This document shows positions 14,046 through 56,217 of a stretch of 64,000 nt of DNA, piece after piece. The notes under the pieces were generated by a model. That model was not told the origin of the DNA. It saw only the letters and a list, made by a program, of their open reading frames with translations, and did no database searches. Source of the DNA: an uncultured Kiritimatiellota bacterium (lineage in GTDB: Bacteria; Verrucomicrobiota; Kiritimatiellia; RFP12; DVOR01); contig CALXOF010000006.1 in the NCBI GenBank assembly GCA_944389945.1, forward strand, positions 1 to 64,000. Reading direction: 5' to 3'. Made by a program: the position numbers and the translations under genes. Position 1 is the stretch's first letter; each line of letters starts with the position of its first letter.

Positions 14046-14256
14046 CCGGAAAGCCCCCTTTAGGGCCCCCCTTTCCGCCCCCCTCCATCACTCTGTCCAC
14101 CGCTTTATCCGTCGCCCCGCAGAGGCGTCCCGTTCTCCGTTTTCCGTTTTCCGTTTTCCGTTCTCCCGGCTTTCTTACGGACTCCTCATAGTTCCCCCCT
14201 TGAATTCACATAGAAATAAGCGTAAACTATTGAGCATTCTTATTCAAGGAGCGACT

Positions 14257-15930: not shown

Positions 15931-15959
15931 TTGACGGGGGGGGGGAAAGTTGCTATTGT
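15931..15959 (+). promoter_or_regulatory. promoter with poly-G spacer (PEP-CTERM gene)
   Basis: TTGACG (15931-15936) and TATTGT (15954-15959) have a 17-base spacer. A run of ten Gs starts with the last base of the -35 box and fills the first nine spacer positions. Gain or loss of a G would change the -35/-10 distance. The gene starts 49 bases after the -10 box. The same design occurs at 24710 and, on the other strand, at 27591. Confidence 0.65.
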
Positions 15960-16007: not shown

Positions 16008-16670
16008 ATGAAGAAACTTGTGATTGCGGCCTTGATGGCCTGTGCTTTTGGCATCGGGACGGCCTCTGCCGTGACGATGAACTGGACGGACTCTAATGGC
16101 AATCTGACCACGACGGAACGGAATTATGGGGACTCCTTCACCGTCAGCCCCACCACCTCCTTCTCGATGTTGGTGACGCTCAACGTCAGTGGATACGCGG
16201 CGAACCAAAAGTGGGATGTCCTCACGGCCTACAACACTGCTAACAAGAGCGACGATGGCTTCCGCCTTCGCATAGAAAATAGGTGGATGTTGCTGAAGTA
16301 CAAGGACGAGGGCACAGAGAAGGATATCAAAAGCGGTACCAACGGCAACCTTTCCGACTCGTTGGACTCCACCAATGGGACGCTTCGCTTAGCCATCGCC
16401 GTGACCGCGGAAGGCATTCGCGTCGCTGTCATGGGCCAGGACGCTCTTTTCACAACTGATGCTATCGGGCTTGATGAGCTGACGAACTGGAGCATCGGCA
16501 CGCACGTTGATGGCGTCGACCTCACGCAGGTGGACGTCTATGAAGGCGTGGCTTGGACGGACGACCAACTTCATGCTGCGGCCGACGGTCAACCCATCCC
16601 CGAGCCGACCGCCCTGGCACTCTTGGCCTTGGGCGTGGCCGGTGTGGCCCTCCGCCGCCGCGTGGCTTGA
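16008..16670 (+). CDS. PEP-CTERM sorting domain protein
   Basis: 220 residues: an N-terminal signal peptide (MKKLVIAALMACAFGIGTAS-A), a beta-rich middle part that could fold as a concanavalin-like (LamG-type) domain, and a C-terminal PEP-CTERM signal of Pro-Glu-Pro, a hydrophobic stretch and an Arg cluster. In the family, exosortase (EpsH/XrtA) cleaves this signal and the protein reaches the surface or matrix. No exosortase is in this window. The last 24 residues are the same as those of the protein at 39592-40287, though the codons differ. GGAAAGGAA precedes ATG. Expression probably depends on the poly-G promoter at 15931. Confidence 0.87.
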   Translation: MKKLVIAALMACAFGIGTASAVTMNWTDSNGNLTTTERNYGDSFTVSPTTSFSMLVTLNVSGYAANQKWDVLTAYNTANKSDDGFRLRIENRWMLLKYKDEGTEKDIKSGTNGNLSDSLDSTNGTLRLAIAVTAEGIRVAVMGQDALFTTDAIGLDELTNWSIGTHVDGVDLTQVDVYEGVAWTDDQLHAAADGQPIPEPTALALLALGVAGVALRRRVA

Positions 16671-24234: not shown

Positions 24235-24597
24235 ATGAGAGCCACCAACGCCCCCGCTTCCCGCGAACGTCGTCGCCGCCGCCTGAAACTGGCCCGCGGC
24301 TTCTACGGCGCCCGCTCCAAGCAATTCCGCCTCGCCACCGAGGCCGTCGACCGCGCCCAGCGCCTCTCCACCTGGCACCGCAAGCTCCGCAAACGCGACT
24401 TCCGCCAGCTCTGGATTGCCCGTATCAACGCGGCCGTCCGCAACCTCGCCGACGCGAAGGTCCCCAACTACTCCCGCTTCATCGAGGGTCTCACCAAGGC
24501 GGGCATCACCGTCAACCGCAAGATGCTCTCCGAGATCGCGATTGCCGACGCCGAAGGCTTCAAGGCCCTCGTCGCCAAGGCCGCCGCCGCCCTCTAA
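24235..24597 (+). CDS. rplT: 50S ribosomal protein L20
   Basis: 120 residues. ERRRRRLKLARGFYGARSK, RDFRQLWIARINAAVR and NYSRFIEGLTKAGI are typical of bL20. L20 binds 23S rRNA early in assembly and in several bacteria represses the rpmI-rplT messenger. AGGAGG lies nine bases before ATG. A strong terminator follows at 24619. Confidence 0.97.
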   Translation: MRATNAPASRERRRRRLKLARGFYGARSKQFRLATEAVDRAQRLSTWHRKLRKRDFRQLWIARINAAVRNLADAKVPNYSRFIEGLTKAGITVNRKMLSEIAIADAEGFKALVAKAAAAL

Positions 24598-24618
24598 GGC
24601 TGAAGCTGGTCGCTTCCG

Positions 24619-24648
24619 AAAGGCGCCGCCCCGCGGCGCCTTTTTTGT
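24619..24648 (+). terminator. terminator after rplT
   Basis: GGCGCCGC and GCGGCGCC pair around CCC (24622-24640) and TTTTTTG follows. Confidence 0.9.
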
Positions 24649-24709
24649 TGTTTGTCTGGGCCTCCCATCTCCACGAAGACACGAAGGGGCGCTTGCGCGC
24701 CCTCACCAC

Positions 24710-24740
24710 TTGACGTAATGGGGGGGGGGAGTGGTATTAT
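24710..24740 (+). promoter_or_regulatory. promoter with poly-G spacer (CD225 operon)
   Basis: TTGACG (24710-24715) and TATTAT (24735-24740) are 19 bases apart, and the spacer holds a ten-G run (24720-24729). Loss of two Gs would give the optimal 17. It stands 60 bases before the first zinc-ribbon/CD225 gene. Confidence 0.65.
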
Positions 24741-24800
24741 ATCTGTGCAATGGGTATGAGGCTGATTTGTCTTGGCCCGATTTGAACAGAAAGGGAAGTG

Positions 24801-25430
24801 ATGTTTTGCTCGAATTGCGGATTTAAGCTGGCGGAGACGTCGAAATTTTGTCCCCAGTGCGGGACAAAAGTTGAACCCATCTCCATCGCCCCGGCAGTGC
24901 CGGAGGCGCCTGCTTCGGTATCGTCCCAGGCCCCCGCTGATCCAATGATGGAAGCACCGGTGATGGAGGAACCTGCTCCTACTCCTACTCCGGCACCGGC
25001 GGTAACGAGGCCGGCCATCCCATCGACGGTGCCACTGCGCAAAGGCTCTTATGCGTCGCAGACGATTGGGCAGGGCCCCAGGAAAACGGTGCGCCGTGTG
25101 GTACGAACCTCTGCCCAGCCGTCGACATCGCAGATGCGGGTCCCCACTCGACCGTTGACGCCGCAGGAGCAACTAGCGCAGTATCGTCGGCTTCGCCCCT
25201 CGCCGCTGGTGTGGTCCATCTTGGCGACAATCTTGTGTTGCATGCCGCTGGGCGTGGTCTCAATCGTGATGGCGTGCAAGGAGAATTCGTGCCTGGCGGT
25301 GTATGACTTCACGGGTGCCGCAGAGGCGAACCAGTCGGCGCGGACCTGGGCATTCTGGGCCCTGATAACAAGCATCATCGGTAACGGCATCTCGTTCTTT
25401 ATCTTGTTTGCGCTCCCCGATACCTTCTGA
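24801..25430 (+). CDS. zinc-ribbon and CD225/dispanin-like membrane protein
   Basis: 209 residues. An N-terminal zinc ribbon MFCSNCGFKL...FCPQCG at about 1-22, a long Pro/Ala/Glu linker to about 135, then two membrane helices: LVWSILATILCCMPLGVVSIVMA followed by a loop and the last helix near 185-205. The CCxPLG-x-x-S segment is typical of CD225 (dispanin, interferon-induced transmembrane-like) domains. Bacterial members have no known role. AGGGAAG is close before ATG 24801. It is the first of four genes in line, all membrane proteins; the poly-G promoter at 24710 likely drives them. Confidence 0.75.
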   Translation: MFCSNCGFKLAETSKFCPQCGTKVEPISIAPAVPEAPASVSSQAPADPMMEAPVMEEPAPTPTPAPAVTRPAIPSTVPLRKGSYASQTIGQGPRKTVRRVVRTSAQPSTSQMRVPTRPLTPQEQLAQYRRLRPSPLVWSILATILCCMPLGVVSIVMACKENSCLAVYDFTGAAEANQSARTWAFWALITSIIGNGISFFILFALPDTF

Positions 25431-26590: not shown

Positions 26591-26673
26591 AGCCTGCCCG
26601 GGATCGTTCCCCACGAAAACACAAGGGGCGGCATAAACCGCCCCTGTGTCTTTGCTGGGAACTTCCCAGAACA

Positions 26674-27510
26674 TTAGTGCTTCTGTAGCAAAAGCTGTTT
26701 CTGAATGTCTTGGGCGGCACGCCGTACTCGCCGTATAGTTTCCTGCTCTTCGGTTGTGTTAGAGCGACTCTGCAAGAGCTCCCATCTCAAAGAAAGAGAC
26801 AAATCCTTAACCTGGCAGGAGACTGCGACAACGACCTCGTTGGAGTACAGCTTATGGGCTTTTCTGTAGGCGAGCAGCCTCGTCCAAGACCACGGATTCA
26901 GGTCTTCGACTTCAAACGTGCCACTCTCCACTTCCCCACTCGGGACCTTGATGGAGTATTTGGCGGTATAGAAGTCTTCCTTCCCCTCCTGCTCAATGAG
27001 CTCAAAGTCAACAATCTCGTAGCGATCCATGTTGACACCCTCTATATCGAGGGTGGTGATAAACTCTTTCCGGGCCGCTTCGATAAGCCGGTCATGGTGC
27101 GTGATGCCGTAGTAACATTGAATGCCTGCGTTAATAAGGATAGCGATAAAGATGATACACGCCACAATGACGCCAATCTTATTCACCTTACGCTTCCAAG
27201 CCTCCATCTTCTTGGCTACGGCCTCTTTCTTTGCCGTTTCCGGGTCGGGGGTGCCTCCCATCTCCTCCGCCTTCGGCGCCTCCGGCTCAGGGGCACCTTG
27301 AGGGTGAGCCGTTGCGTCACTTGCAGACCCCTTCGGCGCTTCCTGCTCGGGGGCACCTTGAGGGTGAGCCGTTGCGTCACTTGCAGACCCCTTCGGCGCC
27401 TCCGGTTCGGGAGCTTGTTGGGGTTGGGGCGTGCCGTTGACCGCCGCGCCACACCGCGTGCAGAACTGATTGCCATCGATGAGTCGATTACCGCATTTTG
27501 TGCAGAACAT
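26674..27510 (-). CDS. zinc-ribbon single-pass membrane protein with repeat linker
   Basis: 278 residues. A zinc ribbon MFCTKCGNRLIDGNQFCTRCG at 1-21 is followed by a Pro/Glu/Ala linker with a 22-residue repeat (GAPEQEAPKGSASDATAHPQ-type, two full copies plus a partial) at about 32-80. A basic helix and one membrane segment (IGVIVACIIFIAILINAGIQ, about 112-131) come next, then a soluble region of 145 residues I do not recognise. The ribbon suggests kinship with the CD225 genes opposite. AAGGAAGG is close before ATG. The gene is convergent with the DUF2752 gene; its promoter has a G-run (27563-27591). Confidence 0.75.
   Translation of the reverse strand: MFCTKCGNRLIDGNQFCTRCGAAVNGTPQPQQAPEPEAPKGSASDATAHPQGAPEQEAPKGSASDATAHPQGAPEPEAPKAEEMGGTPDPETAKKEAVAKKMEAWKRKVNKIGVIVACIIFIAILINAGIQCYYGITHHDRLIEAARKEFITTLDIEGVNMDRYEIVDFELIEQEGKEDFYTAKYSIKVPSGEVESGTFEVEDLNPWSWTRLLAYRKAHKLYSNEVVVAVSCQVKDLSLSLRWELLQSRSNTTEEQETIRRVRRAAQDIQKQLLLQKH
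27283..27420. repeat. 66-bp in-frame tandem repeat
   Basis: Two nearly perfect 66-bp units and a partial third lie in the linker of the zinc-ribbon gene (minus strand). They differ at few bases, so copy number could change by slippage while the frame is kept. Confidence 0.85.
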
Positions 27511-27562
27511 AACGAATCCTTCCTTAAGCTATTCCTATCTGGCACCACTGCCAAACAACAAT

Positions 27563-27591
27563 AGGATAATACCGCCCCCCCCCATTGTCAA
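27563..27591 (-). promoter_or_regulatory. promoter with poly-G spacer (zinc-ribbon gene)
   Basis: On the minus strand TTGACA (27591-27586) is followed by AT, nine Gs (27583-27575) and CGG, then TATTATCCT. TATCCT (27568-27563) gives a 17-base spacer; TATTAT (27571-27566) would give 14. ATG is about 50 bases further on. Confidence 0.65.
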
Positions 27592-27717
27592 GCAGTATGT
27601 GCAAAAGGATATTGCTTCGCCCCACTACGAAGCCTTTTGAGGCGCCGGCCCGCGCCCCTTGCGAAGACGCCTGAATGCCCGGTGTCTTCTGTGGACGCCG
27701 GGAGAGGCCTTGGAGAG

Positions 27718-27796
27718 ACCCTTAAGGGTTCGAGGTGAGACCCTATAAGGGTCGGAGGTCAACCCTTAAGGGTTTCGGGTCGGACCCTTATAGGGT
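27718..27796. repeat. PAL23 phased palindrome array, copy 3
   Basis: Four units (ACCCTTAAGGGT, CCCTATAAGGGT, ACCCTTAAGGGT, CCCTTATAGGGT) about 23 bp apart. Here the half-sites are nearly all CCCT/AGGG rather than CCACT/AGTGG. The stretch 27600-27717 holds nothing I can name. Confidence 0.8.
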
Positions 27797-27859
27797 CTGA
27801 AAAGGGACCCTTAGGAGAGGGTCTCTTCGACGGCATCGATGAGGGCATTGGCGGCGGGG

Positions 27860-51973: not shown

Positions 51974-53962
51974 TCAGCCGTTTTGTCGCTTGATGGCCAG
52001 GGAGAGGAGAGCGAGGTCGGCGGGGTTGACGCCGGGGATGGAGGCTGCGCGGCGGAGCGAATCCGGGCGGACACGCTCCAGCTTTTCCCGCGCCTCGAAG
52101 CGCAGCCCCCGCACCGCGGCATAGTCGAATCCCGGCGGGATGGCCAGCGCCTCATCCCTGCGCAGACGCTCCGCTTGCTGACGCTCATGAGCAATGTAGC
52201 CCTCATACTTCGCGCGCAAGGCAAGCTCCTCCGACCAATCCGGCGGAACCGACTCCCCTACCCCACCGTTCGCGGAGGCCGCCTCGGCAAACGACACCCG
52301 ATCACGCGCCAAGAGCTTCCAACGGTTCAGCCCCTCGCCGTTCAACCAATCCACGCGCCACGCCGCCTCCGTCCGCGACAGCCACTCAGACTCAGACTCC
52401 GAGAGCCGCAACAGTTCCGCGTCCACCAAGCCCAGACGCTTCGCGTGGGCGTGCAGACGCAGATGCGCATCTCCGGGACGTAACAGCAGACGCCGCTCCG
52501 CACGCGACGTGAACATCCGATAAGGCTCATCCGTGCCCTTCGTGATCAAATCATCCACCATCACCCCTATGTACGCCTCATCACGCGAGAGGGTCAAGGA
52601 CGGCTCGCCACGGGCGGCCAAGGCCGCGTTCACGCCGGCCAGAAAGCCCTGCGCCGCGGCCTCTTCATAGCCCGTCGTGCCGTTAATCTGGCCCGCCATC
52701 CACAGGTTCGGCAACGACTTCACAGCCAGCGTTGGACCCAACGCACGCGGGTCGATGCAGTCATACTCGATGGCATAACCCGGCGCGACAAGCTCCGCGC
52801 GGGAGAGTCCCGGCACCGACCGCACCATGCGCACCTGGACATCCGCCGGGAGCGAGTTCGAAAGCCCGTTCGGATAGCACCACGGACACCCCGCGCCCTC
52901 CGGCTCCAGCACCACATGGTGTCCGCCGCGGTCGCCAAACTTCACGATTTTGTCCTCAATGCTCGGACAATAGCGCACCCCCTCGCCGGAAATCTCGCCA
53001 CCATAGAGGGCGGAATCCTTGAGATGGTTGCGGATGATAGCATGCGTCTCCAACGTGGTGTGCGTGCGAAAACAAGGGGTCTGCCCTGAACGTGCGCGGC
53101 GGATAGCCGCCGCAGGGTCGTCGGCCTCCCCCACTCCACTGGCGACGCCGCGATAGGTGGCAAAACCCTCCACCACACCCCAGACGTGCGGGTCCGGGGG
53201 GGTGTTCCACGTGGAACACCCCCCTTGCGCGGAGGCGTCAGCGTCTTGCAAATCGTTCTGCAACAGACGCATACGACGCGAGAAGAAAGGAACGGGACTG
53301 TGTTCACCGGGTTGTTCCTCAAGGGCGGACCAATCGACGGATGTATTGAGGATACGCGGCGGCGTGCCGGTCTTGAGACGGCGCCAGCCGAGTTCCGGGC
53401 AGCGTTCGGCCAGGGCCTTTGGGAGGCGCGCGGCGGGTCGGGCGTCGCCGCCGCCATCACGTCCGGCATGGCCCACCCAGATGCGTCCGCCCAGCGCGGT
53501 ACCGACGGTAAGCACAAAGCGGTCGCCATGGAGCGTGCGGCCGTCTTCCAAAAGCACGGCCACAGGGAGGTCTCCGGAGAAGACGAGGTCGGCCATGGTG
53601 CCTTCGATGAGATCAAGATTGGGCATGGAAGCGGCGACTCGGGCCAAGCGTGCCGTGTAACGGGCTTTGTCGCACTGCACGCGGACGGCACGGACGGCGG
53701 GTCCGCGGCTGGCGTTGAGGGTCTTGTATTGCAGGCCGGTGAGGTCGGCGTTGTAGCCCATCTCGCCGCCGAGGGCGTCGAGTTCGGCCACTAGGTGGGA
53801 TTTGGCCAAGCCTCCGACGGCTGGATTGCAGGGCATCAGGCCCAGTGTGCCAATCTTGGAGGTGACCAGAGCGACTCGGCAGCCCATCCGCGCAGCGGCA
53901 AAGGCGGCTTCGCACCCGGCATGTCCGGCCCCAACAACAATAATCTCATATCTGGATTCCAT
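51974..53962 (-). CDS. mnmG: tRNA uridine-5-carboxymethylaminomethyl(34) synthesis enzyme MnmG
   Basis: 662 residues. With MnmE it modifies U34 of certain tRNAs. The FAD motif VVGAGHAGCEAAFAAARMG is at 9-27; PCNPAVGGLAKSHLV, LKTGTPPRI and RYCPSIEDKIVKF are typical. E. coli MnmG has a short loop between PVFSF and the QVPCYITHT segment; here about 65 residues (roughly 228-293) stand in that place, and parS copy 1 is encoded inside (residues 249-254). TAAAAT (53976-53971) ends eight bases before ATG and there is no ribosome site, so it may be leaderless. As in many bacteria it lies beside the origin; mnmE, rsmG and parA/parB are not in the window. Confidence 0.94.
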   Translation of the reverse strand: MESRYEIIVVGAGHAGCEAAFAAARMGCRVALVTSKIGTLGLMPCNPAVGGLAKSHLVAELDALGGEMGYNADLTGLQYKTLNASRGPAVRAVRVQCDKARYTARLARVAASMPNLDLIEGTMADLVFSGDLPVAVLLEDGRTLHGDRFVLTVGTALGGRIWVGHAGRDGGGDARPAARLPKALAERCPELGWRRLKTGTPPRILNTSVDWSALEEQPGEHSPVPFFSRRMRLLQNDLQDADASAQGGCSTWNTPPDPHVWGVVEGFATYRGVASGVGEADDPAAAIRRARSGQTPCFRTHTTLETHAIIRNHLKDSALYGGEISGEGVRYCPSIEDKIVKFGDRGGHHVVLEPEGAGCPWCYPNGLSNSLPADVQVRMVRSVPGLSRAELVAPGYAIEYDCIDPRALGPTLAVKSLPNLWMAGQINGTTGYEEAAAQGFLAGVNAALAARGEPSLTLSRDEAYIGVMVDDLITKGTDEPYRMFTSRAERRLLLRPGDAHLRLHAHAKRLGLVDAELLRLSESESEWLSRTEAAWRVDWLNGEGLNRWKLLARDRVSFAEAASANGGVGESVPPDWSEELALRAKYEGYIAHERQQAERLRRDEALAIPPGFDYAAVRGLRFEAREKLERVRPDSLRRAASIPGVNPADLALLSLAIKRQNG
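53203..53218. other. parS site 1 (inside mnmG)
   Basis: TGTTCCACGTGGAACA, a perfect 16-bp palindrome identical to the parS variant known from Pseudomonas and a close match to the ParB consensus TGTTTCACGTGAAACA. GG and CC flanks extend the palindrome to at least 22 bp. It lies within the coding sequence of mnmG. Confidence 0.85.
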
Positions 53963-54215: not shown

Positions 54216-54262
54216 AAGGACGACCGAGAGGTTTACAGTAAAAGCAAAGCTTCCTTTGCAAG

Positions 54263-54364
54263 ACCCTTAAGGGTCCGGACAAGACCCTATAGTGGTCGGC
54301 AGGGAGACCCTATAAGGGTCGAAGGTCGACCCCTATAGTGGTCCGAGGAGAGAGCCTATAGGGT
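54263..54364. repeat. PAL23 array, copy 6 (five units)
   Basis: Five palindromic units (ACCCTTAAGGGT, CCCTATAGTGGT, CCCTATAAGGGT, CCCTATAGTGGT, GCCTATAGGGT) at 21-24 bp steps. This is the longest and least regular copy, between parS site 2 and mnmG. Confidence 0.75.
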
Positions 54365-54433
54365 CCGGAGAGGGGAGCTTTAGGGTGGGGTGGGGGAGGG
54401 GCTAAAGAGTGACATCAAGGCTTGTACAGGGGG

Positions 54434-54449
54434 TGTTCCACGTGGAACA
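54434..54449. other. parS site 2
   Basis: The same 16-bp palindrome as at 53203, with the same GGG/CCC flanks, here in the intergenic region 360 bp before dnaA. Confidence 0.88.
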
Positions 54450-54810: not shown

Positions 54811-56217
54811 ATGGAACAGGACAGGACCGAGGCTGATGTTTTGTGGCAGCGGGCTTTGGATGAGCTGAAGGATGTGCTCTCTGAGGTGACGGTGTTGCGT
54901 TACTTCGGGGGGACGGCGGGGGTGTCTCTTGAGGGGGGGACGCTGGCGGTGTTGTTGCCGGAGGACAAGGAGGCGGGTCAGCTGGCGCCATTCGCGACGT
55001 TTGTGGAGAACGCGTTGGGGAAGGTGGGTGCGCCGGAGGGAACGAAGGTGACCTATCGCAAGGCGCCGAAGCCGGAGCCGGTGGCGGTGCCGCAGGCGGG
55101 TCGGGTGGGGGCCGGTGCAGGGCGTGTGCCGACGCAGACGGGTCTGCTGCCGACGTTGACCTTTGACAATTTCGTGGAGGGGCCGGGCAATCAGTTTCCG
55201 TTGGTGATGGCGCGGTATGTGGCGCAGCACCCGGGCGATGAGGACAGCCGGACGAATCCGCTCTTCATGCACGGGCCGACTGGGGTGGGGAAGACGCACC
55301 TGTTGCACGCGATCGGAAACCTAGCGGTGTCGTTGAACCCGGAGCTGAAGGTGCTCTACACGACGAGTGAGCAGCTGATGAATGAGTATATGCATCAGTG
55401 GTCGGTGGGGGGCCAGAACGACAACGCGAAGGAGGCGTTCCGGGAGAAGTATCGCACGCCGGACATCCTGCTGGTGGACGACATCCAGTATATGTCGGGC
55501 AAGGCGGGGTTGCAGAATGAGTTCTTCAACATCTTCAACGCGCTGAAGGATGCGCGCAGGCAGATCGTGATGACGAGTGACCGGGCGCCGACGGAAATCC
55601 CGGACCTGGTGGACCGTCTGGTGAGCCGTTTCCAGAGCGGCATCACGGCGGACGTGGACATCCCGGCGTATGAGACGCGGATGAATATCCTGCTGCTGAA
55701 GTTGCGGGGTTACCCGGACGTGACGTTGGGGCAGGAAATTCTGGAGTTCATCGCGAAGCGGGTGAGCAGCAGCGTGCGTGCGCTGGAGGGGGCTCTGGCG
55801 ACGACGGTCAACTATGCGCGGATGTTCCCGGGGAATCCGGGGGCGATCACGGTGGAGGTGCTCGAGAAGTCGATTCTGAAGGGCTACATCCATGACGAGG
55901 AGACGTTGGTGCGGCTGACCTGCGCGGACATCCAGCGAGCGGTGTGCGACTACTTCGGCGTTTCGATGGATGAGCTGACGGGGAAGAGCCGTGAGAAGAA
56001 GATTGCGACGCCGCGACAGATTGGGGTCTTCCTCTGCCGGAAGCTGACGTCGAGCTCGACGACGGACATCGGGCGGGCGTTCAACCGCAACCACGCGACG
56101 GTGCTCTATTCCTCCTCAACGGTCCAAGACCTCTATAAGAAGGGCGACTCGGAGACCTGTACGGCGTTGAAGGCCCTGGTCGAGAAACTCGGCAAAACGA
56201 CCGGCGACTTGAATTGA
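54811..56217 (+). CDS. dnaA: chromosomal replication initiator DnaA
   Basis: 468 residues. Domain I (about 1-85) has WQRALDELKDVLSE; a short linker follows. The AAA+ domain III has Walker A GPTGVGKTHLLHAIG near 151-165, Walker B ILLVDDIQYM near 219-228 and DRLVSRFQSG (sensor/box VII region). Domain IV has VSMDELTGKSREKKIATPRQIGVFLCRKLT and a variant signature FNRNHATVLYSS where most DnaA proteins have GRDHTTVLHA; it binds DnaA boxes. ATG 54811 has only a weak TTTTCGACG upstream. dnaN is 1.9 kb further on, with a box-rich region in between. Confidence 0.96.
   Translation: MEQDRTEADVLWQRALDELKDVLSEVTVLRYFGGTAGVSLEGGTLAVLLPEDKEAGQLAPFATFVENALGKVGAPEGTKVTYRKAPKPEPVAVPQAGRVGAGAGRVPTQTGLLPTLTFDNFVEGPGNQFPLVMARYVAQHPGDEDSRTNPLFMHGPTGVGKTHLLHAIGNLAVSLNPELKVLYTTSEQLMNEYMHQWSVGGQNDNAKEAFREKYRTPDILLVDDIQYMSGKAGLQNEFFNIFNALKDARRQIVMTSDRAPTEIPDLVDRLVSRFQSGITADVDIPAYETRMNILLLKLRGYPDVTLGQEILEFIAKRVSSSVRALEGALATTVNYARMFPGNPGAITVEVLEKSILKGYIHDEETLVRLTCADIQRAVCDYFGVSMDELTGKSREKKIATPRQIGVFLCRKLTSSSTTDIGRAFNRNHATVLYSSSTVQDLYKKGDSETCTALKALVEKLGKTTGDLN

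Follow-up and report, generated by a model that had tools for sequence, protein, structure and literature searches.

A candidate slipped-strand promoter with a poly-G spacer ahead of a CD225/zinc-ribbon operon in an uncultured gut Kiritimatiellota bacterium

Introduction

Promoters that vary by slippage in the spacer are familiar chiefly from a handful of pathogens (Neisseria, Treponema). The porA promoter of Neisseria meningitidis and the tp0126 promoter of Treponema pallidum carry a poly-G run between the -35 and -10 elements, and the run acts as a length ruler with an optimum of 17 nt (PMC7864442). In the opc promoter of N. meningitidis, a poly-C run spans the -35 (PMC7864442). Long homopolymer tracts have been proposed for phase variation in Akkermansia muciniphila, which belongs to the gut Verrucomicrobia; the 17 genes that contain them include two for capsule synthesis (PMC3048395). 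A PEP-CTERM gene of Aquincola tertiaricarbonis is RpoN-dependent and has a sigma-54 promoter (-24/-12) (PMC9850573). In an account of invertons of gut bacteria, heterogeneous expression near cell-surface genes is described (PMC11892184).

In this study, we analysed a 64,000-nt stretch of DNA from an uncultured Kiritimatiellota bacterium, which is called the window throughout. The L20 protein encoded in the window shares 98% identity with its counterparts in Candidatus Spyradenecus faecavium and other Kiritimatiellae MAGs, placing the window within Kiritimatiellae. The window contains a promoter-like sequence at 24710 with a run of ten Gs. This is probably best read as a slipped-strand promoter of the porA type that belongs to a large set in gut Kiritimatiellae.

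Results

The sequence at 24710-24740 is sigma-70-like and reads TTGACG TAAT GGGGGGGGGG AGTGG TATTAT. The original prediction of TTGACG-19-TATTAT with ten Gs was exact, as the spacer is exactly 19 nt and the G10 run lies at 24720-24729. As in porA-type promoters, the homopolymer is placed between the -35 and -10 hexamers, and changes in the run would carry the spacing through the 17-nt optimum, which would be reached at G8. A poly-C run overlapping the -35, the feature of the opc type, is absent from this promoter. The promoter is located past the rplT terminator and 60 nt ahead of ATG 24801, which is the likeliest start of gene 1 and has an RBS-like AAAGGGA at 24790-24796. Since a strong terminator follows the rplT stop, the genes downstream need their own promoter. 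A consensus scan with spacers of 16-18 nt found no second plus-strand promoter between this terminator and gene 1. An invertible promoter (inverton) was considered for this promoter and for that of the convergent gene, and it was rejected because neither has flanking inverted repeats. The region 24560-24900 has only the stem of the rplT terminator and one coding hairpin, and none were found in 27480-27720. A search for known RNA families found none. The features are listed in Table 1.

Table 1. Positions of the candidate promoter, its operon and related features in the window
Feature	Position	Strand	Evidence
rho-independent terminator of rpmI-rplT, separating the operon from the ribosomal genes	24618..24650	+	12-bp stem, T tail; inverted repeat 24619-24643
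-35 element TTGACG	24710..24715	+	sequence
promoter spacer, 19 nt, TAAT-G10-AGTGG	24716..24734	+	sequence
G10 tract, predicted slippage site	24720..24729	+	sequence; recurrent architecture
TGG, extended -10 element	24732..24734	+	sequence; TGG also precedes -10 in many sister promoters
-10 element TATTAT	24735..24740	+	sequence
gene 1, N-terminal zinc ribbon + CD225 membrane protein, 209 aa	24801..25430	+	Pfam CD225 1.2e-14, Zn_Ribbon_1 6.7e-8
gene 2, zinc ribbon + CD225, 129 aa	25478..25867	+	Pfam CD225 1.1e-21, Zn_Ribbon_1 2.9e-6
gene 3, CD225, 114 aa	25867..26211	+	Pfam CD225 5e-17
gene 4, DUF2752 membrane protein, 130 aa	26198..26590	+	Pfam DUF2752 1.6e-17
hairpin between convergent units, terminator-like on both strands, 3' of operon	26624..26645	.	
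convergent zinc-ribbon protein gene, 278 aa	26674..27510	-	Pfam Zn_Ribbon_1 1.5e-7
convergent gene's promoter, TTGACA-14-TATTAT, G9 at 27575-27583	27566..27591	-	
promoter TTGACG-17-TATTGT, G10 at 15936-15945, first G within -35	15931..15959	+	
PEP-CTERM surface protein gene, 220 aa, behind 15931 promoter	16008..16670	+	Pfam PEP-CTERM 3.4e-6

The four genes behind the promoter had been described as overlapping. This stands for genes 2 and 3 (1 nt) and genes 3 and 4 (14 nt), but not for genes 1 and 2, which are 47 nt apart. The gene content of the operon is plausible, and so is the presumed co-transcription of the four genes. With PADLOC, the four operon proteins did not match defence families, and the convergent neighbour has one weak partial match, PD-T4-6 (E 3.8e-4). 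The zinc-ribbon/CD225/DUF2752 operon is accessory; in a conserved-synteny search, the named relatives carry other genes downstream of rplT. No ortholog of the operon's own promoter was found, and the CD225 homologs in three relatives (G007, G011, and G005) have no homopolymer promoter. A CD225/zinc-ribbon paralog in the window's genome (G000, at C6:76607) has a plain TTGACG-18-TATAAT promoter.

The window has only two G runs of 10 (15936 and 24720) and a single C run of 9 at 27575, read as G9 on the minus strand. Each of the three sits between hexamers resembling -35 and -10 elements, ahead of a gene start; the original prediction had overlooked the promoters of the PEP-CTERM gene and of the convergent gene. 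The promoter of the convergent gene, with 14 nt to TATTAT, would need G12 for a spacing of 17 nt, unless its alternative -10, TATCCT at spacing 17, is used.

The window also contains two exact copies of the palindrome TGTTCCACGTGGAACA (53203-53218 and 54434-54449; chance 0.04), which resemble parS/Noc sites. One copy is within a mnmG/gidA-like gene (51974-53962, minus), and the other is shortly before a possibly dnaA-like ORF (54811-56217). This may therefore be the replication-origin region. Dispersed short palindromes, GACCCTTAAGGGTC / GACCCTATAGGGTC, form tandem groups at 27720-27830 and 54262-54370 and in intergenic DNA near 14083 and 35683. Palindromes of this type also adjoin a locus in G005 (L214).

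The G10 run at 24720, in the spacer of a sigma-70-type promoter, would be a contingency tract subject to slipped-strand mispairing. Slippage during replication would add or remove Gs one base at a time, shifting the distance between -35 and -10 and, with it, transcription of the operon. G10 gives 19 nt and a predicted low output, G9 would give 18 nt, and G8 would give 17 nt and the predicted maximum. The expectation of a weak promoter now and a strong one at G8 is based on the usual optimum and on the mode of 17 nt in the family. We infer both the slippage of run length within a population at 24720 and the effect of length on transcription.

Pattern searches yielded 76 poly-G promoters, in which the mean spacer was 16.8 nt, the mode was 17, and 57% were 16-18 nt. 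The G run started anywhere from within the -35 to 9 nt past it. A compensation test, asking if the remaining spacer is shorter where the run is longer, was suggestive only (p = 0.06). The G count in all collected copies was 8-14, with the frequent context TTGACNNNA/T-G9-10-TGG-TATNNT. An extended -10 lessens the dependence of a promoter on the -35 and on spacing. Given the TGG at 24732-24734, run length is expected to tune output gradually rather than to switch it fully on or off, and the 24710 promoter may be graded in its response and tolerant of spacer length.

The 24720 tract would be one of a genome-wide set, composed of poly-G spacer promoters and poly-C promoters with the run starting in the -35. 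PEP-CTERM genes are the main predicted targets, alongside genes for lipoprotein-like proteins and for zinc-ribbon membrane proteins. Within 220 nt ahead of the start, a run of seven or more Gs or Cs was found for 11 of the 18 PEP-CTERM genes in G000 and 18 of the 32 in a relative, G015. In comparison, 3 of 47 window genes had such a run, two of them at loci described above (Fisher p about 9e-6 for G000 and 1e-6 for G015). Exosortase was found in all six genomes tested. The poly-C class has the form CTTG-C8-10-N-TATGCTANNNT, written TTGCCCCCCCCC for the genome of the window; its spacers are near 16-18 nt and its targets are PEP-CTERM genes. Within the genus, 11 of 17 genomes carry it, at 22 sites in total (control 0); no site was found in the 42 genomes from the rest of the order. 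We rejected the idea that the poly-C runs are a separate, constant element, as they lie ahead of PEP-CTERM genes and their length changes (C8/C9/C10) from one matched locus to another.

Zinc-ribbon genes mostly have no homopolymer promoter in this genus. In another species (G010), two gene clusters encoding zinc-ribbon membrane proteins do have one: TTGACA-15-TATACT with C9 precedes a zinc-ribbon gene, and TTGACT-16-TAGTAT with G10 precedes a YccF gene and a zinc-ribbon/TM2 gene. The orthologous zinc-ribbon genes L304 (G000:C12:37326) and L305 (G005:C20:10567) have TTGACA-17-TAGGGT promoters in which the G stretches are short and interrupted and the spacer is constant. These two promoters are possibly a non-switching counterpart.

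Tracts of G000 were matched by their flanks to those of a second species, G005. The 12 matched tracts include several promoters of PEP-CTERM genes, and others are in coding DNA. The length differed in 8 of the 12 and was equal in 4. The differing pairs, given as G000/G005, were 9/10, 10/11, 9/12, 10/11, 13/10, 9/8, 8/10, and 8/9. The flanks of nine aligned pairs were 83-98% identical, and their alignments, about 4,600 columns long in total, contained 13 gap openings. This comparison, made between species, shows at the level of aligned sequence that homopolymer tracts of this type change length fast from one species to another. Several G9-G12 runs (L076, L077, L082, L022, L025, and L192) are apparently in coding DNA, some of them beside glycosyltransferase-like genes. 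Two matched tracts of this group differ in length between G000 and G005 (10/11 and 9/12). Translational phase variation by coding-DNA G runs, alongside the promoter set, is possible.

A promoter tuned by slippage, as proposed in the original prediction, is the best explanation for the locus, given the many tracts of the same architecture, the spacers centred on 17 nt, and the length differences of matched tracts between species. Most genomes of the genus encode MutS and MutL domains. Loss of mismatch repair was therefore rejected as the cause of the runs, and slippage would occur without help from a known repair defect. The presence of mutS and mutL, and of TGG ahead of TATTAT here and in many sister promoters, would also suit a real promoter whose tract is merely a tolerated, unstable spacer, with an extended -10 that makes output insensitive to the number of Gs and leaves no functional switching. 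However, neutral drift does not explain why long runs are concentrated at PEP-CTERM promoters, why they are kept up across the order, or why spacers centre on 17 nt, and we consider this explanation unlikely.

It is still less probable, indeed very improbable, that the run is a binding site or structural element (for a regulator, a G-quadruplex, or an R-loop) and not a length ruler. Such a role would agree with the 8-14 Gs kept in all collected copies, often in the recurrent context given above. However, the run can start at any point between the -35 itself and 9 nt past it, and in the second class the same strand carries poly-C, which begins in the -35. The occurrence of G and C runs at differing promoter positions argues against a fixed protein-binding site or a strand-specific G-quadruplex.

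The genome of the window (2.33 Mb) contains 33 distinct runs of at least 9 Gs. Such runs were placed between TTGAC and TANNNT in 8 of 33 cases in G000, 18 of 54 in G015, and 9 of 34 in G005, or 35 of 121 in these genomes of one genus. With shuffled flanks, 0.04-0.05 such runs are expected per genome. The same placement was found 0 times on the opposite strand and for 0 of 788 G runs of 5-6 nt. Among relatives across the order, which are mostly fragmented draft genomes, apparently MAGs, with single-base errors possible in long G runs, the poly-G promoter pattern was present in 23 of 59 genomes at about 50 sites, and a reversed-pattern control gave 1 match. In 387 genomes of the phylum, matches outside the order were few and near the control level. 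These results exclude a chance origin of the poly-G promoter class. Chance resemblance or an assembly artefact at 24710, for which draft assemblies and error-prone homopolymers might speak, is extremely improbable, as almost no matches arise with shuffled flanks or reversed patterns and the same architecture recurs in independent genomes, which already refutes it for the class.

Discussion

In this study, we favour the reading of 24710 as a slipped-strand promoter that belongs to a wider set. The set is probably a lineage-wide promoter phasome, in which the poly-G and poly-C classes would independently set the output of many PEP-CTERM proteins sorted by exosortase and of membrane operons of the zinc-ribbon/CD225 type, giving a random combination in each cell. 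If true, uncultured gut bacteria would have a way of diversifying their surface that has gone unrecognised. With a slippage design across surface-protein genes, many surface states would be able to coexist in one clonal population. The homopolymer promoters also suggest a regulatory logic for PEP-CTERM proteins. Since the tract fits inside ordinary metagenomic reads, run-length distributions in hosts could be counted directly without culturing.

The mechanism is known, and the lineage, the breadth, and the PEP-CTERM targets appear to be new. In the open-licence literature, we found no paper joining Kiritimatiellae with phase variation or Kiritimatiellota with PEP-CTERM, which is weak evidence because only open-licence papers were covered.

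The promoters of the 24710 type share the poly-G spacer with porA and tp0126, and their 17-nt mode equals the optimum spacing of those two. These two known promoters control envelope genes; here, the operon encodes CD225 and DUF2752 proteins, and the sister promoters serve PEP-CTERM proteins in a genome with exosortase. Unlike porA and tp0126, the Kiritimatiellae design, known here from sequence, is repeated at many promoters per genome, often with an extended -10, and its hosts are a distant lineage of uncultured gut bacteria. The second class resembles opc in that its poly-C starts in the -35, but, at the pattern searched, it was found in only one genus of the order, and it has PEP-CTERM targets, and the 24710 promoter itself is unlike opc. 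The tracts described for Akkermansia muciniphila sit in genes and not in promoter spacers. Invertons change orientation, whereas the change proposed here is one of length, with no flanking inverted repeats. Finally, the PEP-CTERM promoter of Aquincola tertiaricarbonis is of the sigma-54 type, whereas those described here are sigma-70-like homopolymer promoters.
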